A stretch of DNA of 64,000 nucleotides, taken from contig NC_020126.1 in assembly GCF_000331735.1 (NCBI RefSeq), forward strand, positions 5,908,501 to 5,972,500, given 5' to 3'. Below, in pieces: positions 9,391-29,528 of this stretch. A program made the position numbers and the translations under genes. This stretch comes from Myxococcus stipitatus DSM 14675 (GTDB lineage: Bacteria > Myxococcota > Myxococcia > Myxococcales > Myxococcaceae). The first letter of the stretch is position 1. The number at the start of each line of letters is the position of its first letter. The notes below the pieces were generated by a model, which saw only the letters and a program-made list of their open reading frames with translations, was not told the DNA's origin and searched no databases.

Positions 9391-9439
9391 CAAAGCCCGT
9401 CCTACTGCCCGAGTCGACTCCCCGCCAATCCGCGGCCGG

Positions 9440-11101: not shown

Positions 11102-11260
11102 GTGGAGTCTCCCTGCCGGACCGGTGCCTTATCCATCCGGGGGAGGGGCAGACCGGCCACGAGTCAGCGCGTGTGCTCGTCGCGCACGACGGAAGGACCC
11201 GGTGGCGCGCCTGGCGGCCACGCGTCGGGTGTCATGACTCCGGCAGTGAGGCTCCGCGCC

Positions 11261-11854
11261 CTACTCGTCCAGCAATTCCACGTTCCAGTACGACGCGTCC
11301 GCCAGGTGCAGGAAGGGCAACCACTCCTGATACGTCACCTTGCGCGTGGCGCCTCGGAACAGCGGCGTCCAGCGAGGCCTCACGGGCTTCTTGAGCAGCC
11401 TCATGTCGGCCTGCTCCGGCGTGCGGCCCCCCTTCTTCAGGTTGCACGGGACACAGGAGCACACGACGTTCTCCCACGTCGTCTTGCCCCCCTGCGTGCG
11501 AGGCATCACATGGTCCAGGTTCAGCTCGCTGCGCGGCAGGTTCTTCCCGCAGTACTGACAGGTGTCCGCGTCGCGCGCGTAGATGTTGAGCCGGGAGAAG
11601 CGCACCCGTCCCCTGGGGAGATGGTCATACGCGCTGAGCACCAGCACCCGGGGAACGCGGATGGTCCGGTTGATGGTGGTGATGCAGTCATTGGTGGCGC
11701 TCAGCGCCGCCCAATCGTCGAACTCATAGAGCCGGTACTGCGCGTCGATGGCCTTGGCGACGCCCTGATACAGCAGCGAGAAAGCCCGCTTCACCGACGT
11801 GACGTGCACCGGTTGGTAATACCGGTTGAGGACGAGGACGGCGCTGTTGATCAT
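11261..11854 (-). CDS. HNH endonuclease family protein
   Basis: A 197-aa protein with a compact HNH motif in its C-terminal half: CQYCGKNLPRSELNLDHVMP ... RTQGGKTTWENVVCSCVPCN, with two Cys pairs for zinc and the DH catalytic pair. The N-terminal segment MINSAVLVLNRYYQPVHVTS is typical of a widespread bacterial HNH group, usually chromosomal and of unknown substrate. The ATG at 11854 overlaps the stop of selA (ATGA); the longer frame to 12031 would lie deep inside selA and is rejected. Translation coupling to selA may just reflect compact packing. It could act on DNA, but no partner methylase or phage context is present. Confidence 0.85.
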   Translation of the reverse strand: MINSAVLVLNRYYQPVHVTSVKRAFSLLYQGVAKAIDAQYRLYEFDDWAALSATNDCITTINRTIRVPRVLVLSAYDHLPRGRVRFSRLNIYARDADTCQYCGKNLPRSELNLDHVMPRTQGGKTTWENVVCSCVPCNLKKGGRTPEQADMRLLKKPVRPRWTPLFRGATRKVTYQEWLPFLHLADASYWNVELLDE

Positions 11855-13248
11855 GGTGGTTTCCCGGGACTTGCGGCCGCCACCGCTTCGGCGACCGACC
11901 TGAGCTCCTCCTCCGCGAGACACCGGACGTCGAGAACCACCTCGCCATCCGCTATCCTGCCAATAACCGGCGTTCCTCCGCCGCGCAGGCGTTCGAGGAA
12001 TACTTCCGGCGCACCTACGTTGAGGATGCACGCGAAGGAAGGCAATCGGGCCAGCGGCATGGAGCCCCCGCCCACCTGTCCCACCACCCCGTCCACTCGG
12101 GCACTCACACCCTGCTCGGTCAACAAGCCCTGGAGCCGCCGCGCGCGAGCGCGCAGCTCCTCTGGCGTCTGGACGAGCAGCCTGTACGTGGGGACGGCGT
12201 CTGGCCTGCCATCCCGATACAGCTCCAACGTGGCCTCCAGCGCGGCCACTGTCATCTTGTCGACTCGCAGCGCCCGCATGAACGGATGCGCCTTGATGCG
12301 CGACACCAGCGCCGCGCGCCCCACCACCACTCCCGCTTGAGGGCCTCCCAGGAGCTTGTCCCCGGAGAAGGCCACCACGTCCGCCCCGGCCGCCACCACC
12401 TGGCGCACCGTGGGCTCATCCCCCAGTCCCTCGCCCGTCAGCGGCACCAGCGCCCCCGAGCCCAGGTCCTGGAACACCGGCACCCCTCGCTTCAACCCCA
12501 GCCCGGCCAACTCCGCCACGCTGGCTTCCTCCGTGAATCCCACCACCGCGAAGTTGGAGCGGTGCACCTTCACGAGCAGCCCCGTGTCCGCGCCAATCAC
12601 TCCCGCATAGTCCGCGAGCCGCGTGCGGTTGGTGGTGCCCACCTCCACCAGCTTCGCTCCCGACTGGCGCATGACGTCCGGCACCCGGAAGCCCCCGCCA
12701 ATCTCCACCAGCTCTCCGCGCGAGACGACACACTCGCGCCCCGACGCCAACGCGGCCAGCACCAGCAACACGGCCCCGGCGCAGTTGTTGACGACCAGCG
12801 CGTCCTCCGCGCCCGTGAGCCGCCGCAGCAAATCCACCAGGGGGGCATACCTGCTGCCGCGCTCCCCTTCGTCCAGGTCGTACTCGAGGTTGGAGTAGCC
12901 CCGAGCCACCTCCACCACCCGAGCCATCGCCTCCGGCGCCAGCGGCGCACGCCCCAGGTTGGTGTGCAGCACCACCCCCGTGGCGTTCAGCACCGAGCGA
13001 AGCCCGGGCGTCGCCAACGTGCGCAGGGCCTCCCCGACGTCCGAGTCCTCGAAGGAGCGAGCGTCCCCTTCGAGCAAGCGGGCGCGCACCCGGTCCACCG
13101 CCAGCCGGAGCGCGGAGACCGCTCGGGCCCGCGGGACGCCCGCGAGAAGCGGCTCCAGCGACGGCCGCCGCAGGAGCTGCTCGATGGAGGGGAGTGCGCG
13201 CAGCAGCGCGTTCTTCCCGCCGTCTACGTTGTTCGACGGTGGGCCCAC
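11851..13248 (-). CDS. selA: L-seryl-tRNA(Sec) selenium transferase
   Basis: A 465-aa PLP enzyme of the SelA family, which converts seryl-tRNA(Sec) to selenocysteinyl-tRNA(Sec) using selenophosphate. The N-terminus has the family's LLRALPSIEQLL motif. LNATGVVLHTNLGRAPL, the NNCAGAVLL segment and SGDKLLGGPQAG with the PLP lysine (K298) are all present and the length matches the family. The start is GTG at 13248 without a clear ribosome site. No selB, selC or selD is visible in the window, so the rest of the selenocysteine system must be elsewhere if the pathway works. The downstream HNH gene overlaps its stop by 4 bp. Confidence 0.92.
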   Translation of the reverse strand: MGPPSNNVDGGKNALLRALPSIEQLLRRPSLEPLLAGVPRARAVSALRLAVDRVRARLLEGDARSFEDSDVGEALRTLATPGLRSVLNATGVVLHTNLGRAPLAPEAMARVVEVARGYSNLEYDLDEGERGSRYAPLVDLLRRLTGAEDALVVNNCAGAVLLVLAALASGRECVVSRGELVEIGGGFRVPDVMRQSGAKLVEVGTTNRTRLADYAGVIGADTGLLVKVHRSNFAVVGFTEEASVAELAGLGLKRGVPVFQDLGSGALVPLTGEGLGDEPTVRQVVAAGADVVAFSGDKLLGGPQAGVVVGRAALVSRIKAHPFMRALRVDKMTVAALEATLELYRDGRPDAVPTYRLLVQTPEELRARARRLQGLLTEQGVSARVDGVVGQVGGGSMPLARLPSFACILNVGAPEVFLERLRGGGTPVIGRIADGEVVLDVRCLAEEELRSVAEAVAAASPGKPP

Positions 13249-13352
13249 GCCGGCGAGTCTAGGAGACCCGCCCCCTGATATCCAAGCGAGGGGGCGGTGT
13301 CAGACAGGTGACGACCGCCTCACGCTCGCGGGCATTCTGCTTGAGTCCGCGC

Positions 13353-13862
13353 TCACTCTCGCGTCAGGAAGAGGCTGATCTCCTCGGTGGCCCCGGGCAT
13401 GACGATGTGTCGCTCGAACTGGAACCCCAGCTTCTCCAGCACCTTGATGGAGGCGGCGTTGTCATTCGAGACGATGGCCGCGATGCGCTTCAGCCCGTAG
13501 TCCCGCCGCCCCTGCGACAGCACCGCCGACACCATCTCCAGGGCATAGCCCTGTCCCCAGAACGCGGGCATCAGCGCATAGCCGATGTCCACGTGCTCCA
13601 GCGAGTCGCGCTTGAGCAGTCCACTCATCCCCAGGGGCACGCCGTCCGACTTGCGCTCCACCAGATAGAGCCCGAAGCCGTGGCGCGCGTACTGCGCCTG
13701 AGGGACGTTGGTGATGTAGTCCTCGGCGCCCTCGAGCGTCCGCACACCCCGGTCCCCGATGAAGCGCAGCCACGACGGCTCGTTCAACAACCCAAGGATG
13801 AAGGGCGCATCCTCCCGCACGATCTTGCGCAGGACGAGCCGCTCCGTCTCCAGGACTTTCAT
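13353..13862 (-). CDS. GNAT-family N-acetyltransferase (RimJ/RimL-like)
   Basis: A 169-aa acetyl-CoA-dependent acetyltransferase. It opens with LETERLVLRKIVREDAPFIL and carries YALMPAFWGQGYALEMVSAV (acetyl-CoA binding, Q/R-x-x-G-x-A-like) and NDNAASIKVLEKLGF, all typical of the RimJ/RimL subgroup that acetylates protein N-termini or small molecules. The start at 13862 has GGAGA 7 bp upstream; a longer frame to 13982 lacks such a site. Substrate cannot be told. It stands alone between selA and a small beta-rich protein gene on the same strand. Confidence 0.85.
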   Translation of the reverse strand: MKVLETERLVLRKIVREDAPFILGLLNEPSWLRFIGDRGVRTLEGAEDYITNVPQAQYARHGFGLYLVERKSDGVPLGMSGLLKRDSLEHVDIGYALMPAFWGQGYALEMVSAVLSQGRRDYGLKRIAAIVSNDNAASIKVLEKLGFQFERHIVMPGATEEISLFLTRE

Positions 13863-13992
13863 GTGAAGGTCTCCCCGGAAAGCTCGCGGCTCCAATGAAC
13901 GGAAGCGTCCAGGCAGTCGCGCCACGAGCCACCGCGGGGGATGTAACACGCGCCCTTCTCCCGCGCGGCGGTGAGTGGACACGTCATGCGAC

Positions 13993-14021
13993 TGGCGCCG
14001 GGAGCCTCACTCCCAGCGCCA
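13993..14021 (-). terminator. Hairpin after the beta-rich small protein gene
   Basis: Imperfect stem TGGCGC-x-GGGAG / CTCCC-x-GCGCCA, 11 bp with one mismatch, 11 bp beyond the stop of the minus-strand gene ending at 14032. No T run follows, so this rests on structure and position only. Confidence 0.45.
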
Positions 14022-14031
14022 GATACTTCGA

Positions 14032-14571
14032 CTAAGCGTCGGCCTCTTCGATTTCCAGCTCACTGCCCGCGCCGCTCAACAGCTCGAGCAGCTCGTCCAC
14101 GCCGCCCTCGCTGTCCTGCAGGGACTTGAGCTTGCCGCCTCCGAGGAACTGCATGATGAACTGGTCCTTCATCTCGAACCGGCCCCCCTGGACCTCGCCC
14201 AGGACGGTCAGCGTGTGCGGCTCGCCGTGGCCCACCAGGCGGTCGGCGACCTCGCAGTTGCCCAGCACCAGCACGCTCGAGTGAAGCTCGGCCGACTTCA
14301 CCACCAGGTCTCCCAGGACGAGCAGCCCACCGGGCCCCTTCACCTCCAGGGTCTCCACCTCGACATCACCCGTGACGACAACACTCTCGCGCGAGGAGAT
14401 CGTCAACTGGGAGTCCTTCACCTTCTCGTGCAGCACGATGCCGTTGCGCATGAGGGAGGAGATGTCGACGGGCGCGGCCAGCAGGCCGTCGTCATCCAAT
14501 GCGGTCAGTCTCTCATCCGCGGCCTCGAGTTCTTCCGCGTGCTTCTGGAGCTTCGTGGGGAGCTGAATCAT
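14032..14571 (-). CDS. Acidic beta-rich protein, possibly bactofilin-like; function unknown
   Basis: A 179-aa acidic protein without a signal peptide. After a helical N-terminus (KLQKHAEELEAADERLTALD) residues ~45-130 alternate short hydrophobic strands with Gly/Asp turns (VVVTGDVEVETLEVKGPGG, LLVLGDLVVKSAELHSSVLV). This is the rhythm of a right-handed beta-solenoid such as bactofilins or polymer-forming proteins. I cannot assign a family with certainty. The Met at 14571 has AAGG 8 bp upstream; a frame extended to 14622 is possible. A polymer-forming role is inferred only. Confidence 0.6.
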   Translation of the reverse strand: MIQLPTKLQKHAEELEAADERLTALDDDGLLAAPVDISSLMRNGIVLHEKVKDSQLTISSRESVVVTGDVEVETLEVKGPGGLLVLGDLVVKSAELHSSVLVLGNCEVADRLVGHGEPHTLTVLGEVQGGRFEMKDQFIMQFLGGGKLKSLQDSEGGVDELLELLSGAGSELEIEEADA

Positions 14572-14653
14572 GTCTGCCTTCGTCCATACACCGCGATGCA
14601 GGCCCCCGGAAGCGTCATCCACCAGGGGCCGGACCGAGGCGCAATCACCCCAG

Positions 14654-17600
14654 CTAGGGGCGGAGCTTCAGGTGCAGCACGTCCGCGCGGCGCGACGTGG
14701 GCGTGTACCAGGTGCCATCCAGCTCGAAGGGGTTCGCCAGGTCGCCCGCCGCGATGATGCCGCCCTCCACGGGGGCCAGGTGAAGGCCCGAGTGGAGCGG
14801 CTCCAGCACGCGGACCCAGCGCGTCTCCAGGGAGGACTCGAAGGACGCGAGGGTCGGTCGGTTCGGTGCCTGCCCCTCGGGCAACCCCACGGGCCCCAGG
14901 CCCAGGAGGTCCGCCCAGCCCGCCTGCGACGTCACGATGCGCCCGGTCTCATCCACCGCCAGGCCCTGGAAGGACAGGCTCACCGAGGCGTCCGACTGGA
15001 AGTGCCGCAGCCCCTCCTCCGTGCCCAGGGGCCCCAGCCGTCCCAGCACCGCATCCCGAGGCCCATCCCCCGCGTCGTTCGGCTCCCGGCTCGAGTACGT
15101 GTGTCCCGCGAAGGTGAGGTTTCCGTCAAAGGCCCCCACGAACACCACGCCACCGTCCGGCAGCGTCCGCACCCCATGGAGGTCCCCATGGCTCACGGGG
15201 AAGACGCGAGACCACAGCAGGTTGCCGCTCACGCCCCACCTGGCGGCGAACAGCCCATTCATGAACGTGGGCCCCACGCCGAAATCCGTGTCGCGTCCGA
15301 CCCAGCCCCCCACCGAGATGTTCTCCTCCGAATCCACCGCGACGGACGACGCCTTCGTCCCCCGCGCCGTGGACGCCACCAGCAGCCGAGACCACCGCAG
15401 GCGCCCATCCGAATCGAGCTTCAGGAGGAAGGAGTTGGGAGACTGTCCCTCCGTCGGGAAGCTCTTGCCGGAGTACACGACCCCCGCGCCGAAGTTCGTG
15501 TAGCCCCAGAAGGTGCCCACCAGCACCGCGCTGCCATGGGCATCCGTCGCGAGGTCGAGCACCTCCATGGGGTTCTCATAGAAGACGTTGGGGGTCTCGA
15601 ACCAGGCGATGTACCCCTGAGTCCACTCCACCTTGCCTGACGTGCCCAGCCGCGCCACGAACATCCCGCGCCCCCAGGGCAGCGGGCCCTTCCCCAGGTT
15701 CGGCGCCCCGAAGTACTCGCCCGCGGCGAGCACCTGGCCGTCGCTCGTCACCGCCACCTTCCGGAACTCCACACCCGCCTGGGCGAACTCACGCGACCAC
15801 ACGGAGGCCCCGTCCGCGCCGTGGAGCGTGACGACATCCACCTGCTCGAACGACGAAGGAGCGGCCTGCAGCGGCTCCACCGCGCTCAGGGAGACGTAGC
15901 CCCCCTCCCGCCCGGACGCGACATGGCGCGTGCGCTCCGCCGGAAGACCTCCGGACTGGGTCACCCAGGCGACCGTGCCCGAAGGGCGTGGGCCGCCTCG
16001 GTAGGAACAGAACGACTCACTCTCCGAGAGCACGAGCAGCTGCGGCGCGACGGCGAGGATGCCGCGCTTCTGCGCCTCCAAGGATGCGAAGCGCAGGTCC
16101 TCCTGTGCATCCGGATGAAGCGCGAAGGCATGGCGTCCCGAGGTCGTCACGACGGACGTCACATCGAACTCCACCCACTGGTCCCGGCTCACCGCGCCCA
16201 GGTCCCCCAGGACGGTGGCGGAGATGGCCGGGCGGTGGTTCCAGTCCGTCGTCGCCCCCTCGAAGGACTGGGCCTTGAACAGCCGAGGGCCATTCCCCGA
16301 GGCGTCCAGGGCATACAGCCGCAGCAACACCCGACGCACCGGCCGGCTCCCCAGCTGTACGTCGAAATCCAGATAGCTCTCCGCCTGAGGCCAGCCATCC
16401 ACCGAGAGCGACGCTGCTCGATGAAACACCGTCGTGGGCGACGACTGAACGACCGACGTGTCGTGAAGTGGAACGAAGGTCCGGGACAACAGCTCCTGGC
16501 GTGTCATGCACGCATCAGGGGGCTCGCTCCGGGACGCCCCCGTCCACACGAGGAGCTCCGGACGCTGCGTGCTCACCTCGCGCGAGTGGAACCCCACCTC
16601 GTCCGTCGAGTTGCCGTACAGGCCCAGCGACACCTCGCCATTGCCCCTCACGAGGTTCGTCACGTCGTAGTCGACGAAGCCAGACGGGGTGAGCACCGGC
16701 ACCCGGTCCACGGCGCTCCCCACCCGCGCGGGACGGGAGTTCCAGGTGACACTCCCCTCGGTCCAGGCGCCTCGGGTCTCGAAGACGGAGGGCCCGTTGG
16801 CCGAGCCATCATTGCCGACCTTCAGCCGGAGGACCGCGCGCTGCACCGTCTCCGTCAGCCCCTGGAGGAAGAAGCGCAGGTGGACCTCGCGCTGAGGGGT
16901 GTTCCCCACCCGAAGGAGCACGGACGCACCTCCGGACGGAGTCCCCGGCGCATCCGCCGAGACAAACGCATCCGCGCTCGGCGCGAAGGCCACGGGGGCG
17001 CCCGAGACAGGAAGCGGCGGGATGGACGGAGGCGGGTGGTCCTGGGCGGACTCGATGGTGAGCACGAGCCGGGGGCGCAGCGTGGGGTCCTCGTGCTCGC
17101 TCGAGGCGAACATCACGCCGTCCGGGTCATCCGCCTTCAAGAAGACATCGACCGTGTTGCGCTGGAGGTTGATGGCCTCCGTGACATCCCATTCCACCCA
17201 GGTGCCACGAAGGACGGGCCCCACGTCGGCGACCACCCAGGAGCCCGACCACAGGGGCCGCGTGTTCCACGTCGTCAGCTCACTCCAATTCCAGACACCG
17301 GGCGGGTTGCGCACCGACGGTCCATCCATGGAGCTGTCCAGCGCATGGAGGCGCAGTCGCGCGGTCGTCAGCGTCCCCGCGAAGGGAGGAATCGCGAAGC
17401 GGAGGTACGCCTCGGCCTGGGGAGAGCCATCCACCTCCAGGGTCGTCAGGGCGCCGTAGCTCGTCGTGGGCGACCCCTCCATGACGTGGGTGTCCGCCAC
17501 CGGGTACAGCGTCTCATTCCGGGTGATGAGCGCGTCGCCGCGTGAGCCTCTCTTTGTGGAAGTCGAGGCCCCCGTCTGAGAAGGCCCACACCCACTCGCG

Positions 17601-17677
17601 AGCCCCAGCAACACCCCCAGCCCCCACCCCACCACCCTCTTCGCTCCATGTCTCACGCCGCGCCCCCCTCGGTTCAA
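14654..17677 (-). CDS. Large DNRLRE-domain lipoprotein with C-terminal propeller-like repeats
   Basis: A 1007-aa predicted lipoprotein (signal ending GLASGC at residue 30). Three DNRLRE-type modules follow at about 50-215, 230-385 and 390-560. Each opens with ADTHV/ADAFV/HDTSV-type text, a YLRFAIPPF-like strand, an ARLRLHALD core and a WVEWDVTEAI-like segment. Such modules occur in secreted, often surface-displayed proteins. Residues ~570-1007 are bladed repeats with the sequence pattern of a beta-propeller, each with GGxF/GxFxG and 'LDSDGRLRWSR'-like ends. No catalytic motif is seen. It is probably an outer-surface structural or binding protein. The hairpin-bearing gap after it leads to mltG. 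Confidence 0.75.
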   Translation of the reverse strand: MNRGGRGVRHGAKRVVGWGLGVLLGLASGCGPSQTGASTSTKRGSRGDALITRNETLYPVADTHVMEGSPTTSYGALTTLEVDGSPQAEAYLRFAIPPFAGTLTTARLRLHALDSSMDGPSVRNPPGVWNWSELTTWNTRPLWSGSWVVADVGPVLRGTWVEWDVTEAINLQRNTVDVFLKADDPDGVMFASSEHEDPTLRPRLVLTIESAQDHPPPSIPPLPVSGAPVAFAPSADAFVSADAPGTPSGGASVLLRVGNTPQREVHLRFFLQGLTETVQRAVLRLKVGNDGSANGPSVFETRGAWTEGSVTWNSRPARVGSAVDRVPVLTPSGFVDYDVTNLVRGNGEVSLGLYGNSTDEVGFHSREVSTQRPELLVWTGASRSEPPDACMTRQELLSRTFVPLHDTSVVQSSPTTVFHRAASLSVDGWPQAESYLDFDVQLGSRPVRRVLLRLYALDASGNGPRLFKAQSFEGATTDWNHRPAISATVLGDLGAVSRDQWVEFDVTSVVTTSGRHAFALHPDAQEDLRFASLEAQKRGILAVAPQLLVLSESESFCSYRGGPRPSGTVAWVTQSGGLPAERTRHVASGREGGYVSLSAVEPLQAAPSSFEQVDVVTLHGADGASVWSREFAQAGVEFRKVAVTSDGQVLAAGEYFGAPNLGKGPLPWGRGMFVARLGTSGKVEWTQGYIAWFETPNVFYENPMEVLDLATDAHGSAVLVGTFWGYTNFGAGVVYSGKSFPTEGQSPNSFLLKLDSDGRLRWSRLLVASTARGTKASSVAVDSEENISVGGWVGRDTDFGVGPTFMNGLFAARWGVSGNLLWSRVFPVSHGDLHGVRTLPDGGVVFVGAFDGNLTFAGHTYSSREPNDAGDGPRDAVLGRLGPLGTEEGLRHFQSDASVSLSFQGLAVDETGRIVTSQAGWADLLGLGPVGLPEGQAPNRPTLASFESSLETRWVRVLEPLHSGLHLAPVEGGIIAAGDLANPFELDGTWYTPTSRRADVLHLKLRP

Positions 17678-17724
17678 CGAGGGAGGTCATCGAGCAACAG
17701 ACGCGCCATGAAACAACAGAGGGG

Positions 17725-17748
17725 GTTGTCTCGGTACTTCAAGACAAC
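17725..17748 (-). terminator. Hairpin after mltG
   Basis: Perfect 7-bp stem GTTGTCT/AGACAAC with a 10-nt loop, about 20 bp beyond the mltG stop on the minus strand. Downstream sequence is C-rich, then TCTGTTGTTTC; no continuous T run. Confidence 0.45.
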
Positions 17749-17768
17749 TCGAGGGGGGCGCCGCGCGC

Positions 17769-18788
17769 TCAATACACGTTGTACTTGCGGCGCAGCGCCT
17801 CGTGCTCCTCCGCGTTGCGCGAAGGGTGCAGCTTCTTCTCGGCGTCGTGCAGGTAGTACCAGAACTCGCTCGACTTGGGCGCCATGGCGGCCTGGAGCGA
17901 CTCCACGGTGGGCGCGCCGATGGGGCCCGGCGGCAGGCCCTTGCGGTGGCGCGTGTTGTACGGGTCCTCGGGGTCTCGCAGGCGCTTGAGGAACTCGCGG
18001 CGGTCATTCCACTGCGCCAGCGCGTAGCGCGACGTCGCGTCCACGCCCAGGGGGAACCCCTTGTCCACGCGCTTCCAGAGGATGCCCGCCACCAGCGGAC
18101 GCTGGTCCGGCACCGGCTCCTCGCGCTCGAGCATCGACGCCATCACCACCACCTCGTGGAGGGAGCGGCCGCTCTTCTCAATGGCGTCGCGGTTGGGCTT
18201 GAAGAAGCGCTCCGCGAAGGCATCAATCTGACGCTGGATGAGGTCCTCGACGTCCAGCTTCCCCGGAATCACCCCGTAGGTCTCCGGGTAGAGGTAGCCC
18301 TCCAGGCTGCCTCCGGTGGGCAGCGGGAAGGGCGCGGTGTAGCGGCGGGTGTCGCTGGCCGCGGCGATGTACGCCCCGGCGGTGATGAAGCCCGCGGCGG
18401 TGAGCGCCGCGTCGGTGTCGCGCAGACGCCAGCCCTCCACCACGACGAAGGGCACATCGTCCGGAAGGGGATTGTCCTCCAGCGCCGAGGCCAGCTCCGC
18501 CACCGTCATGGACGGGCTCACCGGGTGGCGGCCCGCCTTGGGGGAGAACTTGCCTCGGCGGAAGAGGTGCCAGCGCCACACGCGCGCATCCCGGATGAGC
18601 CCCTGGGTGGCGAGCAACGCCCCCAAACCCCTGCCCGAGGAGCCCTTGGGGACGGTGAACTCCACCGTCGGCGCGCCGGGGGCGGCCACGGCTTGATTCG
18701 CCGCCTGCTCCACCCACCAGAAGGCGCCCGCTCCCACCACCGCCAACAGCACGAAGACCGCAGCCAGACCCACGAGAATCTTCTTCAT
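17769..18788 (-). CDS. mltG: Endolytic murein transglycosylase
   Basis: A 339-aa YceG/MltG-family enzyme that cuts nascent glycan strands inside the chain and so sets their length during peptidoglycan synthesis. Residues 1-24 (MKKILVGLAAVFVLLAVVGA) are a membrane anchor. The periplasmic part has the family's YLYPETYGV, the catalytic-Glu segment VVMASMLEREEP and the PYNTRHRKGLPPGPIGAPT ending. I chose MKKIL as the start; a GTG six codons upstream has a better-spaced GGGGG and is possible. The next gene upstream is divergent, so it is probably the sole or first gene of its unit. Confidence 0.92.
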   Translation of the reverse strand: MKKILVGLAAVFVLLAVVGAGAFWWVEQAANQAVAAPGAPTVEFTVPKGSSGRGLGALLATQGLIRDARVWRWHLFRRGKFSPKAGRHPVSPSMTVAELASALEDNPLPDDVPFVVVEGWRLRDTDAALTAAGFITAGAYIAAASDTRRYTAPFPLPTGGSLEGYLYPETYGVIPGKLDVEDLIQRQIDAFAERFFKPNRDAIEKSGRSLHEVVVMASMLEREEPVPDQRPLVAGILWKRVDKGFPLGVDATSRYALAQWNDRREFLKRLRDPEDPYNTRHRKGLPPGPIGAPTVESLQAAMAPKSSEFWYYLHDAEKKLHPSRNAEEHEALRRKYNVY

Positions 18789-19028
18789 CGCGGCGCACCG
18801 TAGCACCGACGCCCCCTCATGCCTCCTTCCGAGTCACCGGATGTCCGCTCCCGGGTGCCGCCTCTCCGGCCGGCCGGGCGGCGGGGGCGCCCTGCCCCAC
18901 TCCGCGCCTCGGACAGCCTTTCGTCCACGCCCGTGGTCTCCCGACTCCGCGTGCACTGGCGGCCCCCGGCCCTCGTTCTCATCTTCGAGGCCGTCAGCCC
19001 TTTCCCCTCTGTCCCGCGAGGAACGCCC

Positions 19029-19874
19029 ATGCCCAGCCCGCTCTCAAGCGATCAGCTCACCACCCGCGATGGCACCCGCATCTACTTCAAGGACTGGGGC
19101 CCTCGGGACGGTCAACCCGTCGTCTTCTCGCACGGCTGGCCTCTCACCGCCGACGCCTGGGAGGACCAGATGATGTTCCTGTCCGAACGGGGCTTCCGCA
19201 CCATCGCCCATGACCGCCGCGGCAATGGCCGCTCCTCCCAGCCCTGGGACGGACATGACATGGACCACTTCGCGGATGACCTGGCGGAGCTGACCTCCGC
19301 GCTGGACCTGCGCAAGGCCGTCCACGTCGGGCACTCGACGGGAGGGGGCGAGGTGGCGCGCTACATCGGACGTCATGGCACCGGGCGCGTCGCGAAGGCG
19401 GTGCTCATCGGCGCCGTGCCGCCCATCATGCTCAAGACGGACTGGCACCCGAATGGACTGCCTCGCGAGGTCTTCGACGGCATCCGCGAAGGCGTGCGCA
19501 AGGACCGCGCCTCCTTCTTCAAGGAGCTGACGCTCGCGTTCTTCGGCTTCAACCGCCCCGGCGCGAAGGTCTCCGAGGGACTGCGCGAGAGCTTCGTCCT
19601 CCAGGGCTTGATGGGCTCGCTGAAGGCGGAATACGACACCGTGAAGGCCTTCTCGGAGACGGACTTCCGCGCGGACCTGGCGAAGTTCGACGTGCCCACC
19701 CTGGTCATGCACGGGGACGACGACCAGATTGTCCCCTTCGAGGGCGCCGGAAAGCTCACGGCCACCCTGGTGAAGGGCGCGAAGCTGAAGGTCTACCCGG
19801 GCTTCGGCCACGGGCTGTGCTCGGTCAACAAGGACGTCATCAACGAGGACCTGCTCGCCTTCATCCGAGGCTGA
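19029..19874 (+). CDS. Alpha/beta hydrolase, non-heme haloperoxidase type
   Basis: A 281-aa alpha/beta hydrolase close to bacterial non-heme chloro/bromoperoxidases (perhydrolases). The oxyanion-loop [10 protein letters not shown], nucleophile elbow GHSTGGG, acid residue in [11 protein letters not shown] and C-terminal His in [11 protein letters not shown] complete the Ser-Asp-His triad. A GAGGA site lies about 7 bp before the ATG at 19029, so longer upstream frames are set aside. Such enzymes form peracids from carboxylates and peroxide and can hydrolyse esters; the physiological substrate is unknown. It is convergent with the VOC gene, 15 bp away. Confidence 0.88.
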
Positions 19875-19889
19875 GCAGACACGTCCGAG

Positions 19890-20354
19890 TCAACCGCCGA
19901 CGAGCTGCTGGAAGCGCCGCTGCAGCTCCTCGGGCGAGAGATGCTCGAGGCGTTTGGAGAGTGCCCAGCGGTGGCCGAAGGGGTCCCGCAGGTGCGCCAC
20001 GCGGTCGCCGTAGAACTCATCCGTGATGGGCCGCTCGAGGATTGCGCCCGCGGCGATGGCGCGCTGGGCCAGGCCGTCCACGTCATCGACGGACAGGTTG
20101 AGCAGGCTCGTGGCCCCACCTCGGCTCTGGGGCCCCAGGATGTCCAGCTCCGGGTACTCGTCCGCGATGGCCAGCGTGACGCCCCCCAGTGACAGCTCCG
20201 CATGGCCCAGCCGCCCCGAGGGCTCCACGAGCCTGAACAGCTCCTGGGCGCCGAGGACTTCCGTGTAGAACTTCAACGCCGCCATCGCGTTCTTCATCAC
20301 GAGCTGGATGCCCAGCCGAGGGCCCTGCCCGGACACCGCGGAAGTGTTCGTCAT
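19890..20354 (-). CDS. VOC-family protein (glyoxalase/dioxygenase superfamily)
   Basis: A 154-aa protein with the two-module beta-alpha-beta-beta-beta layout of the vicinal-oxygen-chelate fold. MAALKFYTEVLGAQELFRL and DPFGHRWALSKRLEHLSPEE match the PhnB-like subgroup. Members include glyoxalases, dioxygenases and antibiotic-binding proteins; metal ligands cannot be fixed here. The start at 20354 is set by AAGGGGA upstream. Its gene follows the Slt gene by 28 bp on the same strand, so the two may be co-transcribed, though no functional link is evident. Confidence 0.8.
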   Translation of the reverse strand: MTNTSAVSGQGPRLGIQLVMKNAMAALKFYTEVLGAQELFRLVEPSGRLGHAELSLGGVTLAIADEYPELDILGPQSRGGATSLLNLSVDDVDGLAQRAIAAGAILERPITDEFYGDRVAHLRDPFGHRWALSKRLEHLSPEELQRRFQQLVGG

Positions 20355-20382
20355 CGGATTCCCCTTGGAAGTGAGGCGGGAC

Positions 20383-22779
20383 TCAGCGCGACGCGGACTT
20401 GATGACCGGCAGCTTGGGCGCCCGGCCGTAGAGCAACTGGTAGGTGTTGTACGAACGCAACACGCGCTTGATGTAGCCACGCGTCTCGGAGATGGGAATC
20501 TCCTCCACCCACGCGTCGAGCGGCAGGTCCGGCTTGTCCGCGCGCCAGCGATTCACGGCGCCGGGCCCCGCGTTGTAGCTGCCCACCGCGTAGGGCGTGT
20601 GGCCCCCGAAGCGCTTCAACAGGCCCCCGAGGTAGTGCGCCCCCATGCGGATGTTGAGGTCGGGCTGGAGCAACTGCTCCACCGTGAAGCGCTTGAGCTT
20701 CAGCTCTCGCGCCACGCTCTTCGCGGTGGAGGGCATCAGCTGGGTGAGCCCCAGCGCTCCGGCCCACGAGAGCGCCTTCGGGTCCAACGCGCTCTCCTCG
20801 CGCATCAGCGCCTGGAGCAGGTCGGCCTCCACGCCCGCCGTGGACGTGTGCTTCTCGATGAGCTCGCGGAACGCATTGGGATAGGCCACCTCCCACACCA
20901 CCCGCGTCTCCTTCGTGATGCGGCCACTCAAGTCCTTGCGCAGCGCCAGCCGCGCCACCGCGTGAGCGGCACGCTCATCACCCGCCTCGTGCAGCACCAG
21001 CACCAACAAGCGGATGGCCTCCGCCGGCTGGTTCGCCCGGCTCACCGCGAGCAGCTCCGAGGACACGGCCTCCGGGAAGCCCAGACGCAACAGCTCGATG
21101 CCCGCGCGGAAGTGAGGGTCCTCCCCCATGGGCCCCGCGAACAGTGGCCACGGGCTCGCGGCCTCCGGCACCGCGAAGATGTCCGGGGTGATGCGCTCCA
21201 GCCGGGCCGGGTCCAACGTGGCGATTTGCGAGCGCGCCATCAGCCCGTAGTACGTCGCGGGGTGGTCCACGGCGATCTTCTCGAACAGGTCCGCCGCGCC
21301 CTGGATGTTGCCCTGGTCCTGGTACGTCCGCGCCCGCCAGTAGCGCGCGCGCTCCACGTCATAGCTCTCGTCCGACTGCGCGAAGCGCTGCTCGATGCGG
21401 TCCAGGAAGGACAGCCCCGCGTCCTCCACCTTGCTGGTGCGCGCAATCCAGTACGCCTTGAAGAGCGCCTCGCCCAGGAAGTCGCCCTGCGGATACAGTC
21501 GCGCCAGCTCGTCCAGCCGAGCCATCGCCTCCTGGGGGCGGTCTGTCTTCACATACAGGTCCGCCGCGTAGAACAGCGCGTCGTCCGCGAAGCTGTGGTC
21601 CGGGAACTCGCGAGCCAGCCGCTCGTACGTGTCCGTTCCGCGCGAGGAGTCGACGATCGAGCGCGACGAGCCCAGCACATACAGCGCCCGCGCCAGCAGG
21701 TCGCGGTCCGTGCACTTCGCCACCACCTGCGACAGGACCTCGATGGCGCGCGTGTGCTGGCGCTCCTTGCGCAGGCCCTTGCCGTAGGCGAAGTGCGCAC
21801 GGCACGCGAGCGCCTCCGGGAGGACCAGCTTCGGCAGCAGCGGCTCCAGCTGCGTGAGGCCCTGCTTGTTGCGGTGCAGCTCCACCAGTTGCTCACCCCG
21901 AGCCACCTTCGCGTCGACGGGCGGCGTCTGCCCCTTGAGCCGCCGCTCGGCCTGCAGCGCCAACGGAGACAGGGGATGTGAGCCCCACAGCCGCCACAGC
22001 GCGGTGCGCTCGGCGGCGCGGTCCTTCTTCTCCGCGGCGATGTCGGCGATGGCCATCAGCGCCTCGGCGCCCACGTTGCGTCCCCAGCTGGGCGCGGCGC
22101 GCGAGGTGAGCGGCTCCAGCGCGGCCATCGCTCCCGCCGCGTCCTTCTTCTTGCGCAGCACCCGCGACAGCGCCAGCCGGGCATCCACGTACAGCCGCGA
22201 CTCCGGAGGCACCTGCGCGAGCAGCACCGCGGACTCATCGAAGCGGCGCAGGCCCTCCAGCGCCACCCCCGCATGCGTGAGGCACCTGTCCCTCAGCGCG
22301 GGGTAGTCGGGCGCCAGCGCGGCCAGCTCCTTCGCGGCCGTCTCTTCATCGCCCGAGCGCAGCGCGGACAGGGCCCGCAGGTAGCGCACCGGGGGCGCGT
22401 CCCCTTCCGTCTTGAGCAGCTCACGGGCCCGGCTGAACTGGCCCTTGTCGAAGGCCACGCGGGCCTCCTTCTTCTTCCCCTCGCCGAAGTACGGCGACAG
22501 GTCCTCCAGCGCGTAGCGGCGGCCTCGGTGGACGACGGGCGCGGGGGGCGCGGCGTTGGGGAACGCGGGGTTGAGGACCTCCACGAAGCCCTCGGGCAGC
22601 GGGGCCTTCTCCGCGTCCGGCGGCGGCGACAGCTGCGCCTCCGGGGGCGCGTTCTCCGTGTGGGGCGTGGGGGCTTCGGAGGGCACCGCCTCCGAGGCGG
22701 GGACCTGGGGAGCGGGAGCCTGCGCGGACAGGAGGACCGAGGAAGCGACGACGGCGAGCTTGGAGAAGAAGAGCTTCAT
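20383..22779 (-). CDS. Soluble lytic murein transglycosylase with TPR-like superhelix
   Basis: A 798-aa exported Slt70-type enzyme that cleaves MurNAc-GlcNAc bonds to 1,6-anhydro ends. Residues 1-20 form a signal peptide (KLFFSKLAVVASSVLLSAQA). A Pro/Glu-rich linker follows. A long helical TPR-like region runs to about 640. The C-terminal SLT domain has LMREESALDPKALSWAGALG with the catalytic Glu, then LTQLMPSTAK, NIRMGAHYLGGLL and AVGSYNAGPGAVNRW. The start at MKLFF is chosen because only it gives a signal peptide; a longer frame runs to 22920. MltG lies 1.6 kb away. It is divergent from the histidine kinase. Confidence 0.9.
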   Translation of the reverse strand: MKLFFSKLAVVASSVLLSAQAPAPQVPASEAVPSEAPTPHTENAPPEAQLSPPPDAEKAPLPEGFVEVLNPAFPNAAPPAPVVHRGRRYALEDLSPYFGEGKKKEARVAFDKGQFSRARELLKTEGDAPPVRYLRALSALRSGDEETAAKELAALAPDYPALRDRCLTHAGVALEGLRRFDESAVLLAQVPPESRLYVDARLALSRVLRKKKDAAGAMAALEPLTSRAAPSWGRNVGAEALMAIADIAAEKKDRAAERTALWRLWGSHPLSPLALQAERRLKGQTPPVDAKVARGEQLVELHRNKQGLTQLEPLLPKLVLPEALACRAHFAYGKGLRKERQHTRAIEVLSQVVAKCTDRDLLARALYVLGSSRSIVDSSRGTDTYERLAREFPDHSFADDALFYAADLYVKTDRPQEAMARLDELARLYPQGDFLGEALFKAYWIARTSKVEDAGLSFLDRIEQRFAQSDESYDVERARYWRARTYQDQGNIQGAADLFEKIAVDHPATYYGLMARSQIATLDPARLERITPDIFAVPEAASPWPLFAGPMGEDPHFRAGIELLRLGFPEAVSSELLAVSRANQPAEAIRLLVLVLHEAGDERAAHAVARLALRKDLSGRITKETRVVWEVAYPNAFRELIEKHTSTAGVEADLLQALMREESALDPKALSWAGALGLTQLMPSTAKSVARELKLKRFTVEQLLQPDLNIRMGAHYLGGLLKRFGGHTPYAVGSYNAGPGAVNRWRADKPDLPLDAWVEEIPISETRGYIKRVLRSYNTYQLLYGRAPKLPVIKSASR

Positions 22780-22886
22780 ACGAAGGGCTGGGGACCCTGG
22801 GAGGTGGGCGCGGGCTCGCCCCATGACAACCGGGGGTGCATGGAAAATTTCCGGAGACGGACACAGGTTAGACTGTCCGCGCTCCC

Positions 22887-25133
22887 ATGGACATCCGGAC
22901 ACAGAGTGCCCTGCTGGCATCCATCATCGGCCTCGCCCTGGGCGTGTCCATGTTGCTGCGGCCGGGCCGGCCCAAGGTCCTCACCCTGTACTCCGTCTTC
23001 GCCCTGACGGTGGCCGGGTACTACCTCTCGTTCTTCTTCCACAGCCTCTTCCCCCCCGACGCGTACCCCTGGGCGTACCGCATCTCCCTGGGCATCACCA
23101 TCCTGGTCGCCTCGCTCGTGCCGGGCGCCGCCGTGGGGTTCTTCCTCGAGTTCTTGGATGTCAGCAAGGGAACACACCTGGCAGGTCGGCGGCTCGCCAT
23201 CCTGTCGGTCTTCCTGGGCCTCACCGTGGCCGTCACCCCCTTGGCCGACAAGGTGTGGGCCCGAGTGGCCATGGGCGTCTGGGTGCTCGGCTCCCTGCTC
23301 GCCTCGGTGTCGTTGCTCCTCCACCGGGTTCGCAGCAACGAGTCCCGCATCGAGCAGCTGAGGTTGATGTACCTGGCCATTGGCGCGGGCGCGGGCATCT
23401 TCTTCTCGGCGCTCGACTTCCTGAGCAGCGTCATTCCGATTCCGACGCTCGGCCCGGTCTTCACCACGCTGTACCTGTTCTTCCTCGCGCAGACGCTGCT
23501 GCGACTGAGGCTGATGGACCTGCACGAGCTGCTGGGGAAGATTGCCTCGCAGACGGTGCTGGCCGTCATCCTCGCGGCCGTCTTCACGGTGTTGACGGCG
23601 TGGGTGGGTGAGGATGCGGGGCTGTTCGTCTTCAACACGGTGGTGGCGGCTTTCGTGGTCCTCATCCTGTTGGACCCGCTGCGCACCAAGGTCGACGAGA
23701 TGGTGGTGCGCATCTTCTTCCGTGAGCGGTTCGCGTTGCTCGACGCGCTGGGGACGTTGCGCGCGCGCATGGCCAACGTGATTGAGATCTCGGAGCTGGC
23801 GACGCTGGTGCTCGACACGCTCCACGAGACGGGCCGCGTGACACACTCGTCGGTGTACCTGCTCGCCGAGGACCGGCCCGGTTACCGGCTGTTGGACTCG
23901 CGAGGCCCCCTGCCCGTTCCGTTCCTGGACACGGCGGCGGCGCGCGGGTTGTTGTTCGCGGTGGCCAGCGGACAGAAGGCGGTGCTGCTGGAGAACGTGG
24001 AGCGGCGCGGCGCGACGATGCGGCTCCAGTCGGTGGAAGGTCGGCGCTACCGGGACGAGCTCAAGCGGTTGAACGACACGCGCGCCGCGCTGGTGCAGAT
24101 GCGGGCAGGCATCAGCGTGCCGCTGGTGGGCAATGACCGCGTCATCGGCTTCTTGAATCTGTGGGATGAGCGCGTGCCGGAGGCGTACGCGTCCGACGAG
24201 ATTGCCCTCATCCTGGAGGTGGCGGAGAAGCTGACGACGGTCCTGGAGAACTCGAAGCTGTACGAGAAGATCCGGGAGAGAGATCGCCTCGCGGCGCTGG
24301 GTGAGATGGCGGCGGGTCTCGCGCACGAGATTCGCAATCCGCTGGGCGCCATCAAGGGCGCGGCGCAGTGCCTGGACCCTCGACAGCTTCCGGGCGAGGA
24401 CGGCGAGTTCCTGGAGGTCATCGTCGAGGAGGTCAACCGCCTCAACGGCGTGGTGACGGCGTTCCTCGACTACGCGCGGCCCATGAAGCAGAGCTTCGGC
24501 CCCACGGACCTGAACGAAGTCGTCACGCGCACGATGCGGCTCATCCAGAACGACGTGCCGGGCAACGTGTCGCTGGCGGTGGAGCTGGACCTGCTGCTGC
24601 CTCGCGTGGACGGGGACGCGGAGCAGCTCAAGCAGGTGCTCATCAACCTGGTGCAGAACGCGGTGCAGGCGCTGGACACGCGCGAGGGCCGCATCACCGT
24701 GCGCACGGAGCGCCCCGAGCGCTTCGGCGAGTTCCGCAACGCGGGCGGCGAGGTCATGGAGGTGCGCGTCTCCGACAACGGGCCGGGCATTCCCTCCGAC
24801 CAGCAGCCGCACATCTTCGTGCCCTTCTTCACGACGAAGCAGAAGGGCACCGGGCTGGGGCTCGCCATCTGCCAGCGCATCGTGAAGAACCACGGCGGCA
24901 GCATCTCCGTGCAGAGCAAGGCGGGCGAAGGGACCACCTTCATCATCCGCATGCCCACGCTCCCACCGGAGAAGCCCGAGGAAGGACTCGTCGCGGAGGG
25001 TGCCAGCACCACCGCTCCCACGGCGCGGCGCATCTCCCAGTCCTTCCCCATGCCGGACGAGCTGCGCGAGCCCCCCTCGCCTCCCGCCGACGAGCCGAAG
25101 CCCAAGCGCGAACGGCGACGCAAGGCGAGCTGA
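22887..25133 (+). CDS. Membrane sensor histidine kinase with GAF domain
   Basis: A 748-aa sensor kinase. About seven hydrophobic segments occupy residues 1-250, resembling 7TM or histidine-kinase N-terminal sensor modules. Residues ~270-455 form a GAF domain. HisKA carries AAGLAHEIRNPLG with the phospho-acceptor His480. The HATPase region has NLVQNAVQAL (N box), DNGPGIP (G1), FFTTKQKGTGLGL (F/G2). The C-terminal tail is Pro/Lys/Arg-rich. No response regulator is adjacent, as is common for orphan kinases in myxobacteria, so the partner is unknown. Its last ~159 bp are contained in a perfect 410-bp tandem duplication that follows it. Confidence 0.9.
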   Translation: MDIRTQSALLASIIGLALGVSMLLRPGRPKVLTLYSVFALTVAGYYLSFFFHSLFPPDAYPWAYRISLGITILVASLVPGAAVGFFLEFLDVSKGTHLAGRRLAILSVFLGLTVAVTPLADKVWARVAMGVWVLGSLLASVSLLLHRVRSNESRIEQLRLMYLAIGAGAGIFFSALDFLSSVIPIPTLGPVFTTLYLFFLAQTLLRLRLMDLHELLGKIASQTVLAVILAAVFTVLTAWVGEDAGLFVFNTVVAAFVVLILLDPLRTKVDEMVVRIFFRERFALLDALGTLRARMANVIEISELATLVLDTLHETGRVTHSSVYLLAEDRPGYRLLDSRGPLPVPFLDTAAARGLLFAVASGQKAVLLENVERRGATMRLQSVEGRRYRDELKRLNDTRAALVQMRAGISVPLVGNDRVIGFLNLWDERVPEAYASDEIALILEVAEKLTTVLENSKLYEKIRERDRLAALGEMAAGLAHEIRNPLGAIKGAAQCLDPRQLPGEDGEFLEVIVEEVNRLNGVVTAFLDYARPMKQSFGPTDLNEVVTRTMRLIQNDVPGNVSLAVELDLLLPRVDGDAEQLKQVLINLVQNAVQALDTREGRITVRTERPERFGEFRNAGGEVMEVRVSDNGPGIPSDQQPHIFVPFFTTKQKGTGLGLAICQRIVKNHGGSISVQSKAGEGTTFIIRMPTLPPEKPEEGLVAEGASTTAPTARRISQSFPMPDELREPPSPPADEPKPKRERRRKAS

Positions 25134-25137
25134 CGAC

Positions 25138-25166
25138 GGGGCTGGGTCTCACGAACACCCAGCCCC
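25138..25166. terminator. Bidirectional hairpin terminator (copy 1)
   Basis: Perfect 10-bp stem GGGGCTGGGT/ACCCAGCCCC with a 9-nt loop, 4 bp beyond the histidine-kinase stop and between two convergent 3' ends. No T run. It recurs in copy 2 of the duplication. Confidence 0.55.
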
Positions 25167-25177
25167 GCCTGTCTCTC

Positions 25178-25384
25178 TCAGGGGAGGCACACGTTCAGCA
25201 TCAGCGTGGCGCTCTTCGCTTCGGTGTCGGTGAAGGCGAGGTCCGTGAGCCCATCTCCGTTCCAATCCGCGACCAGCGCGTCCTGGACCGCCGAGCCCCA
25301 GGAAGGCAGTCGCGCGGGACTGAAGGCACCACCGGACTGCTGGAGCCACAGCTTCGGGGCATAGGAGCTGTTCGAGAACACATC
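25178..25384 (-). pseudogene. Orphan 3' fragment of the FN3/FG-GAP gene
   Basis: The minus-strand sequence is identical to the last ~207 bp of the FG-GAP gene (the ADWNGDGLTDLAFTD repeat and stop). It is separated from the gene body by the duplication junction at 25385, so it lacks a start and the upstream coding part. It is a by-product of the tandem duplication and should not be counted as a gene. Confidence 0.9.
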
Positions 25385-25543
25385 CCCGAGGAAGGACTCG
25401 TCGCGGAGGGTGCCAGCACCACCGCTCCCACGGCGCGGCGCATCTCCCAGTCCTTCCCCATGCCGGACGAGCTGCGCGAGCCCCCCTCGCCTCCCGCCGA
25501 CGAGCCGAAGCCCAAGCGCGAACGGCGACGCAAGGCGAGCTGA
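25385..25543 (+). pseudogene. Orphan 3' fragment of the histidine-kinase gene
   Basis: An exact copy of the last ~159 bp of the kinase gene (tail EEGLVAEGASTTAPTARR onwards, with stop), cut at the duplication junction. It has no start or domain of its own. Confidence 0.9.
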
Positions 25544-25547
25544 CGAC

Positions 25548-25576
25548 GGGGCTGGGTCTCACGAACACCCAGCCCC
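25548..25576. terminator. Bidirectional hairpin terminator (copy 2)
   Basis: Duplicate of the 10-bp hairpin at 25138-25166, here 12 bp beyond the stop of the intact FN3/FG-GAP gene. Confidence 0.55.
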
Positions 25577-25587
25577 GCCTGTCTCTC

Positions 25588-28500
25588 TCAGGGGAGGCAC
25601 ACGTTCAGCATCAGCGTGGCGCTCTTCGCTTCGGTGTCGGTGAAGGCGAGGTCCGTGAGCCCATCTCCGTTCCAATCCGCGACCAGCGCGTCCTGGACCG
25701 CCGAGCCCCAGGAAGGCAGTCGCGCGGGACTGAAGGCACCACCGGACTGCTGGAGCCACAGCTTCGGGGCATAGGAGCTGTTCGAGAACACATCCGTGCG
25801 GCCGTCGCTGTTGAAGTCCTCGGCGATGAGGCCCAGGCCCGCGCCATCTTGCGAGTCGAACCGGAGGGTGAGCACGGGCTGCCGGGCGGCGTCAAAGGTG
25901 AGGAAGCCCATCTCCCCGTTGTCCACCACGAGCCCGACGAGCCCCTGCCCGTCCAGGTCCGCGCGGCCCATGTTCCGCATGTACGGCGTTCCGGTGAACG
26001 TCGTCGTTCCGGCGAAGCCTCCCGCCCCGTTGCCCCAGAGGACATGGACCAGGCCTGGCGCGACGATGGGCTGACCACCACGCAAGAGGGCCAGGTCCAT
26101 GTGGCCATCCCGGTCCAGGTCCGCGGCCACGAGTCCGGAGGTGCCGCGCTCGGAGGAGAGGGCATATCGAGGCTGGGCCGCGAACCGTCCGTTGCCCTGG
26201 TTGAGCCAGATGCCCAGGGAGTCCTTGTCGAACAACCAGGAGCTCAGCGTCACCAGGTCGAACCGGCCATCCTCGTTGAGGTCCACCTTGATGAGCTCGT
26301 AGACGGTGTTGTCCTCCGGGTAGCGCACGGCCAGGTCGAACTCGCCGCTCGGCAGCCGCTTGAAGACCACCAGTTGGTTGCTCGCCGTGCTGCTCTGCAC
26401 GGTGGTGATGGCCGCGAGGTCCTCTTGGCCGTCTTCATCCAGGTCTCCCGCGACGAGGTCGCGCACGCCGCCCGTCACGGTGCTCCCCGTCGGAGGAACG
26501 TAGACCGGCGACAGCATCGCCCGGCCGCGCGAGGCACCGCCCGACAACGACAAATGGATGGCGTTCTTCGCGATGCTTCCCGCCGCGAGGTCCGCTGAGC
26601 CATCCCGGTTGAAGTCCCCCTGGGCCAGCCCTCCCGGAGCCCCTTCGAGTGGCAGACTCTCGGGCATCAGCGGACCACCCCAGAACACACGCATGTCCAT
26701 GAAGTCGCCCGTGAGCACGACGTCCATCCGCCCATCTCCGTCGAAGTCTCCCGCGGCGGGTGTGTACGCCTCACCGCTGAAGCCATAGGTCAGCAGCGGC
26801 GCGAACGGAGGCGCGGTCGTGCTCCCGGGCAGGACATGCAGGTGCCTGTCGTAGTTGGTGGACCAGAGGAGGTCACTCACCGCGTCGCCGTCCAGGTCCA
26901 CGGCGATGGGAATCGCGGTGGGGATGCCCCCCTCGTCCGGGAGGATGGTTTCTCCCAGCAAGGACAGTGTTCCGCTCGGCGTGTTGAAGACGCGGACCCT
27001 GTCGCGGCCGATGATGGCCACGTCATCTCGCGCGCCATCCTTGTCGAAGTCACCCACCACCGCTTCGCCGCCGCAGGTGGTGCACGGGACATAGCTGGGG
27101 GTCTTGAAGGTGCCGGTCCCCGTGCCGTTCGCCTGGACGATGCGGTTGTTGGCGCCATCGATGCGGGCGTAGTCCAGGAAGCCATCGCGATTGAAGTCCG
27201 CGACGATGGGGCAGTAGCCCGAGGACGACACAATCGTCGTCGGAGACGCGAACGACCCATTGCCCAGTCCTCGGTAGAGGACGATTTGATTCCCCGTCGT
27301 GTGCGCGAGCACGTCCGGCGTCCCGTCGGAGTTGAAGTCTCCGGACGCCATGCAGTTGAGGGTGGTGTTCAGGGCCGTGTTCGTGGTGATGGGCGCCAGG
27401 AACGTCCCGTCGCCATTGCCCGGATAGAGGACGAAACCGCCCTTGTGCGTGCTGTCGGCGAACAGGATGGCGGCCACGTCCAGCTTCCCGTCCTTGTTGA
27501 AGTCCGCCACCACGGGCGGCAAGTCGAGGAACGTCGCCTGCGCGGACGCGGAGAGCTCTCGCCGAGAGAAGGAGCGACGGCCCTCGTTGGCCATGACAGC
27601 GACGCGGTACGTCGCGCCCACGACGACATCCGGCTGCCCGTCCCCGGTGAAGTCACCCGCGCCCACGAAGTTGAGCGGCGAGCCATAGGAGTGCCCGGAG
27701 ATGGGCGCGAACGATGGCGTCTCACAGGCCAGCGGCGTGACATGCCGATGGAAGACAGGTGCGGAAGGCCGCCCCCGTCCCGCCGAGTTCCGAGCCGTCA
27801 CATGGAATCGCGCCTGTGTCCCGGAGGGCAGGCCCGTCACGGTGGCCACGAGGGTGTCACCCGCGACAGTCACGGGCACGCCGCCCGGAGACGCGGTGAC
27901 GAGATACTCGGTGACGGGGTCGCCCTCTGGCGCGGTGGCCTGGTTCCAGCGCACGACGACTCCGTCCACCGTGGAGGTGACGCGGACATCGGTCGGTGCC
28001 TTGGGCTGCGGGCGCGTGAGGATGGGCGCCGACGAGACGGACGGCCCCTCTCCCACCGCGTTCACCGCGACCAGGGTGAACGTATAGGAGACATCGAGCG
28101 CGAGCCCGGTGATGGAGACCACCGTGGGCGTCGTGGGAAGTGACCGCTCCGCGCCGGCGGGCGACGACGTGAGCTTGTAGCCCGTGAGAGCGCTGCGTCC
28201 GTCCGAGACAGGCGGGAGCCAGTCCAGCTCGACACGGCCTTGAGAGAAGACACCGGTGAGGTTGACGGGAGCGGAGGGGATATCCGGGAGCGTCACCTCG
28301 GTGCTCGTCGTCGCGGGGCCCGTCCCCGTCGAGTTCTGCGCGGCCACGCTGAACGTATAGACGCCGCCATTGACCAGTCCGGAGAGAGTCGCGCTGGTCG
28401 CGGTGCCGCTCACGGTCTGCGTCATTCCTCCCGGCTGCGTGGTGATGACGTATCCGGAGAGAGTCCCGCCTCCTGTGCTCGCAGGGGGCGCCCAGTACAC

Positions 28501-29358
28501 CGTCGCGGCGCGGAGGAGCGGCGCCGCACTCACTCGCACGGGCGCGCTCGGCAGTGCCGTGGGCACCAACGCGCTCAGCGTGGCCGCGGAGGAGCTGCCC
28601 ACCGCGTTGATGGCCACCACGCTGACGCCGTAGGTCGCTCCATTCGTCAGCCCCGTGAGCGTGACGGTGGTCTCCGTCGTGGTGAGCGGCTGCCCACCGG
28701 GGCTCAGCGTCACGGAGTAGCCCTGGATGGGCTGTCCTCCATCCGAGGGGACTCGCCAGTTCAGCGTCACCTGCTGGTCTCCTGTCTTCCAGGATGACCA
28801 CGAGGGCGCACCGGGCACGCTGGAGGTTCGCACCGACGAGGACACGCTCGAGACCTTGCGCGAGCCATCCGCGTACACCGCCGTGACGGTGAACGTGTAG
28901 CTCGTGCCGTTCGCCAGCCCGGTGACCTGCGCGGAGCGAGCCGTGGGCACCGCCGAGACCAGTACTCCTCCAGGAGAAGCCTTCACCTCGAAGGCGGTGA
29001 GCACACCCGTCGGCTGGGTCGGAGAGAGTCCCCAGGAGACCTCCGCGGACCGGATGCCCGGCACGGCCTTGACGTTGATGGGAGTCGACAACACCAACGC
29101 ACCGCTCACCGCGCCGGCATCTCGCCCTCCCGCATCGGGCGGTCCCCCATCCCCGCTGCCCGCATCTTCGGAGGAGCCCGCGTCACCCGGGCCGCCATCC
29201 CCGCCGGGGTTCGCGAGAAAGGACTCACAGCCCTCCGAGGAGCACTCGCCAGAGCGGCACTGCGACTCGGAACAAGACGTCGCGTCGTTGGATTTCTCTC
29301 CACAGCCAGCCGTCGCCAGTGCCGTGAAGGCCACCAGGATGCACCAGACACTTCGCAT
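25588..29358 (-). CDS. Giant lipoprotein with five FN3 and about fourteen FG-GAP/VCBS repeats
   Basis: A 1256-aa predicted lipoprotein: signal MRSVWCILVAFTALATAGC, then a Cys-rich segment and an acidic Gly/Asp/Pro linker. About five fibronectin-III modules follow (each with an AP-x-V opening, W strand and ASPGG-type turn). The C-terminal ~700 residues hold about 14 calcium-loop repeats such as GDFTGDGQPDVVVGA, ADFNKDGKLDVAAIL and ADWNGDGLTDLAFTD, the FG-GAP/VCBS pattern of beta-propellers. No enzyme motif is seen; it likely binds ligands or matrix at the cell surface. The start at 29358 has GAGGG upstream and gives the lipobox. Its 3' end lies in copy 2 of the tandem duplication but the frame is intact. 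Confidence 0.85.
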   Translation of the reverse strand: MRSVWCILVAFTALATAGCGEKSNDATSCSESQCRSGECSSEGCESFLANPGGDGGPGDAGSSEDAGSGDGGPPDAGGRDAGAVSGALVLSTPINVKAVPGIRSAEVSWGLSPTQPTGVLTAFEVKASPGGVLVSAVPTARSAQVTGLANGTSYTFTVTAVYADGSRKVSSVSSSVRTSSVPGAPSWSSWKTGDQQVTLNWRVPSDGGQPIQGYSVTLSPGGQPLTTTETTVTLTGLTNGATYGVSVVAINAVGSSSAATLSALVPTALPSAPVRVSAAPLLRAATVYWAPPASTGGGTLSGYVITTQPGGMTQTVSGTATSATLSGLVNGGVYTFSVAAQNSTGTGPATTSTEVTLPDIPSAPVNLTGVFSQGRVELDWLPPVSDGRSALTGYKLTSSPAGAERSLPTTPTVVSITGLALDVSYTFTLVAVNAVGEGPSVSSAPILTRPQPKAPTDVRVTSTVDGVVVRWNQATAPEGDPVTEYLVTASPGGVPVTVAGDTLVATVTGLPSGTQARFHVTARNSAGRGRPSAPVFHRHVTPLACETPSFAPISGHSYGSPLNFVGAGDFTGDGQPDVVVGATYRVAVMANEGRRSFSRRELSASAQATFLDLPPVVADFNKDGKLDVAAILFADSTHKGGFVLYPGNGDGTFLAPITTNTALNTTLNCMASGDFNSDGTPDVLAHTTGNQIVLYRGLGNGSFASPTTIVSSSGYCPIVADFNRDGFLDYARIDGANNRIVQANGTGTGTFKTPSYVPCTTCGGEAVVGDFDKDGARDDVAIIGRDRVRVFNTPSGTLSLLGETILPDEGGIPTAIPIAVDLDGDAVSDLLWSTNYDRHLHVLPGSTTAPPFAPLLTYGFSGEAYTPAAGDFDGDGRMDVVLTGDFMDMRVFWGGPLMPESLPLEGAPGGLAQGDFNRDGSADLAAGSIAKNAIHLSLSGGASRGRAMLSPVYVPPTGSTVTGGVRDLVAGDLDEDGQEDLAAITTVQSSTASNQLVVFKRLPSGEFDLAVRYPEDNTVYELIKVDLNEDGRFDLVTLSSWLFDKDSLGIWLNQGNGRFAAQPRYALSSERGTSGLVAADLDRDGHMDLALLRGGQPIVAPGLVHVLWGNGAGGFAGTTTFTGTPYMRNMGRADLDGQGLVGLVVDNGEMGFLTFDAARQPVLTLRFDSQDGAGLGLIAEDFNSDGRTDVFSNSSYAPKLWLQQSGGAFSPARLPSWGSAVQDALVADWNGDGLTDLAFTDTEAKSATLMLNVCLP

Positions 29359-29528
29359 ATCGCCCTCGGTCCCCGTGCCCCTGGAGGTCGCTTCGTGCGC
29401 GACGTCGAGAGGTCCCTGAGTTCCCCCGTTCAACGACCGTGCTCACGAATTGTCGCGAGCAGGTTGGAACGGGAGGGCGTCCACGCAGGACGTCCCCGGT
29501 TGGGTCGAAAGCGTTCCGCGAGAGTGGT

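Follow-up and report, generated by a model that had tools for sequence, protein, structure and literature searches.

A perfect 410-bp tandem repeat where a histidine kinase gene converges on an FG-GAP gene in Myxococcus stipitatus DSM 14675: recent duplication or assembly artefact

In the genome assembly of Myxococcus stipitatus DSM 14675, a histidine kinase gene and a convergent Fn3/FG-GAP gene meet at a 410-bp sequence that stands twice in direct succession, raising the question of whether this strain underwent a very recent duplication or whether the repeat was introduced by the assembly. The window analyzed here is a stretch of 64,000 nucleotides, in which all positions are numbered. Self-comparison at a lag of 410 bases matched positions 24975-25384 to 25385-25794 at 410 of 410 bases, so that the preliminary description, which had claimed a perfect tandem duplication at the ends of the two genes, holds base for base. 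Tandem Repeats Finder likewise reported an array at 24975-25795 with a period of 410, 2.0 copies and a 100% match. The unit comprises three parts: the 3' end of the kinase gene (its last 53 codons, stop included), a GC-rich hairpin, and the 3' end of the FG-GAP gene (its last 69 codons). The features of the locus are as follows.

22887..25133, + strand: intact histidine kinase, 748 aa (GAF, HisKA and HATPase_c domains; open reading frame and Pfam)
24975..25384: 410-bp unit, copy 1 (identical to copy 2), which supplies the 3' end of the intact histidine kinase gene
25137..25167: GC-rich hairpin, copy 1 (fold of -41 kcal/mol over 81 nt, z -3.84)
25178..25384, - strand: orphan FG-GAP 3' fragment, 207 bp, 68 codons plus stop, keeping the frame of its parent (translation)
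25384..25386: novel junction ...AACACATC-C-CCGAGG..., with 1-base homology, present in 1 of 27 genus genomes; the sequence crossing the junction (25384/25385) is AACACATCCCCGAGGAAGG
25385..25794: 410-bp unit, copy 2, which supplies the 3' end of the intact FG-GAP gene
25385..25543, + strand: orphan kinase 3' fragment, 159 bp, 52 codons plus stop, keeping the frame of its parent (translation)
25547..25577: GC-rich hairpin, copy 2, identical in sequence to the copy 1 hairpin
25588..29433, - strand: intact protein, 1281 aa, with five Fn3 and about nine FG-GAP/VCBS-like repeats (open reading frame and Pfam)

Both full genes are intact and two orphan 3' fragments lie between them, as had been described; the kinase stop codon (25131-25133) falls within copy 1 and the FG-GAP stop codon (25588-25590) within copy 2. 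Because a tandem duplication preserves every old adjacency and adds one junction, the intactness of the outer genes needs no explanation: it is a geometric necessity and no sign of selection. The junction also creates a spurious open reading frame of 391 aa (24368-25543, + strand), which runs from an alternate frame of the kinase gene into the orphan kinase tail and could be called as a gene by automated annotation.

To place the repeat in its genomic context, we surveyed six blocks, 2.4 Mb in total, of the 10,350,586-bp one-contig genome. Apart from the 410-bp repeat, the longest exact direct repeat at spacings of up to 6 kb in this sample measures 87 bases, which excludes a chance origin of the 410-bp repeat, and perfect tandem repeats with units longer than 60 bp are otherwise absent. 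The remaining long-period arrays have diverged copies and periods mostly divisible by three; the 410-bp repeat, with 2.0 perfect copies, a period of 410 and a span across two gene ends, therefore does not belong among minisatellites or coding repeat arrays. Membership in a dispersed repeat family was likewise rejected, as the unit has a full-length match in the genome only here and its other matches are pieces of 70-83% identity to the part encoding the kinase domain. Separately, M. stipitatus (G000:C1:6033704-6036789) and its relative G009 (G009:C1:5970632-5973587) share an old tandem duplication, its unit being about 1.5 kb long and its match roughly 80%.

G009 is the closest species compared, 95-96% identical in the flanks, and it carries a single copy of the unit. 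Positions 24500-25385 align to 1026-1910 of the G009 locus (L009) and positions 25385-26300 to 1501-2415 of the same locus; when the flanks are joined, the alignment to G009 runs through in the single-copy arrangement. On either side, G009 aligns collinearly with 7773-25385 (94.7% identity) and with 25385-64000 (96.3% identity), and the duplication is the sole break in about 56 kb of collinearity (between 7773 and 64000). Farther out, the alignment to G009 also breaks at 5187-5354 and 7351-7773, at coding repeat arrays (periods of 15-45 and 60/117) that evidently differ between the species. The unit holds two ordinary gene 3' ends and no extra sequence, and with G009 in the single-copy state this led us to reject a mobile element or integration site as its origin. 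With up to 3 mismatches allowed, the junction sequence is absent from the 26 other genomes of the genus. Judged by these sequence comparisons, the single copy in G009 and the occurrence of the junction in only one of 27 genomes indicate that the duplication is derived and specific to the DSM 14675 assembly. A 400-kb block of G009 searched for comparable perfect tandem repeats had none.

The FG-GAP gene (25588-29433) is itself accessory, lying between the kinase gene and a gene for an ABC-F-type ATPase. It is full in M. stipitatus, and G009 has the orthologous C-terminal part. In G008 it has been cut to a short remnant, made up of an internal piece and 47 C-terminal residues that are 77% identical, and in G014 it is missing, so that the ATPase and kinase genes directly face each other; the positions concerned are about 1311-1655 of L010 and 1498-1559 of L011. 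A search of the FG-GAP protein against the genome contigs returned distant FG-GAP proteins only and no close relatives.

The unit differs from its G009 counterpart by 28 substitutions and 6 gap positions, and the two copies differ from each other by none. Taking about 28 changes as the full split and setting gene conversion aside, the probability of seeing no difference between the copies is 0.25 for a duplication at 5% of the split, 0.06 at 10% and 0.015 at 15%. Any real duplication event would thus date to the last ~10% of the split between M. stipitatus and G009. Both alternatives named at the outset, a very recent duplication and a faulty assembly, survive the single copy in G009, the contrast of 0 with 28 substitutions, and the hybrid nature of the assembly.

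The junction offers little to choose between them. The exact run at a lag of 410 extends over 24975-25385, 411 bases, one base (C) more than the unit, in agreement with the single-base homology originally reported. However, 48% of random 410-bp joins in the M. stipitatus genome show at least one base of homology, so a one-base match is uninformative; it is no longer than expected of a random join, and longer homology would have supported a recent duplication without being obligatory for one. In Salmonella, verified spontaneous duplications have junction homologies of at least 11 bp, and short ones are treated as chimaera-like (PMC3411829). Our locus, with 1 bp, is unlike these, which weakens the ordinary route of slippage between short repeats. 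An end-joining route is conceivable, since a Ku gene is present in the M. stipitatus genome; a search for the LigD_N domain of the end-joining ligase gave no match.

The way in which the genome was assembled lends weight to the possibility that two sequences with a 410-bp overlap, either two contig ends or a contig plus a finishing read, were placed one after the other and left unmerged, the strain itself being single-copy like G009. The DSM 14675 genome (CP004025) is a hybrid assembly that draws on Newbler and Celera results and combines 454 Titanium reads (8-kb paired-end) with Illumina reads of 100 bp (PMC3622980). From the published figures, (102 x 10.35 Mb - 8.48 M x 100 bp)/466,513 reads, the mean 454 read comes to about 446 bp by our estimate (PMC3622980), so few reads would cover a complete copy and still be anchored at either end, and the 410-bp unit is close to the length of one such read. 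Sequences left unmerged over roughly one read length would produce the same picture, with perfect identity, exactly 2.0 copies and a random-looking junction, and the strong GC-rich hairpin within the unit is a plausible site for a contig break. The uniqueness of the repeat in the 2.4 Mb sampled can be read in both directions: it counts against a real duplication, yet a common kind of faulty join should have left other such repeats. Unlike typical unmerged overlaps in hybrid short-read assemblies, moreover, this one would stand in a genome reported as finished, closed and verified by Sanger sequencing at 102-fold coverage (PMC3622980). We regard an artefact as a serious prospect, if one a little short of even. 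In general, perfect tandem repeats of about read length are more often collapsed by assemblers than invented.

On balance, we lean toward a real event, a single and very recent head-to-tail duplication of 410 bp in the DSM 14675 lineage that is probably neutral. The published closed genome, its coverage and its Sanger verification argue for this reading; the near-read-length unit, the lack of any similar repeat in the sample, and the random-like junction count against it. The locus resembles the simple tandem duplications that arise in bacteria by illegitimate recombination: two perfect copies stand head to tail, a single novel junction with minimal homology lies between them, and the nearest relative is in the single-copy state. 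We infer that the second copy is physically present in the strain and that recombination needing little homology could have created it, for example through a template switch from one sister strand to the other or through end joining.

The hairpin is probably a bidirectional terminator of the kinase and FG-GAP genes, although it lacks a T-run and a scan for canonical intrinsic terminators was negative. Its centre is 27 bp off that of the unit, an offset without significance that we discarded as a clue. The outer copies would leave both genes and both terminating hairpins whole. This second hairpin gives each gene its own copy, and selection might therefore have favored a doubled terminator that insulates the convergent genes, or expression of the orphan 3' fragments. 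We consider such a selected duplication highly improbable: none of the 26 other genus genomes has it, the same gene pair in G009 is served by one hairpin, the intact outer genes follow from geometry, and a scan for sigma-70-type sites found no promoter-like site in 24500-26300. By the same token, it is very doubtful that the duplication is both real and maintained because the doubled bidirectional hairpin betters the transcriptional insulation of the pair in this strain. If the duplication is real, the inner fragments, with no recognizable promoter, would not be expected to be expressed; the duplication would thus most likely be neutral, and unstable. No functional effect is expected, as the products of both genes are unchanged.

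Should the repeat prove to be an artefact, its recognition would be a correction to a reference genome. If it is real, it would provide a fresh tandem duplication whose single-copy counterpart is known from a sister species, and a small case in which a segment of a high-GC genome was duplicated with little homology.
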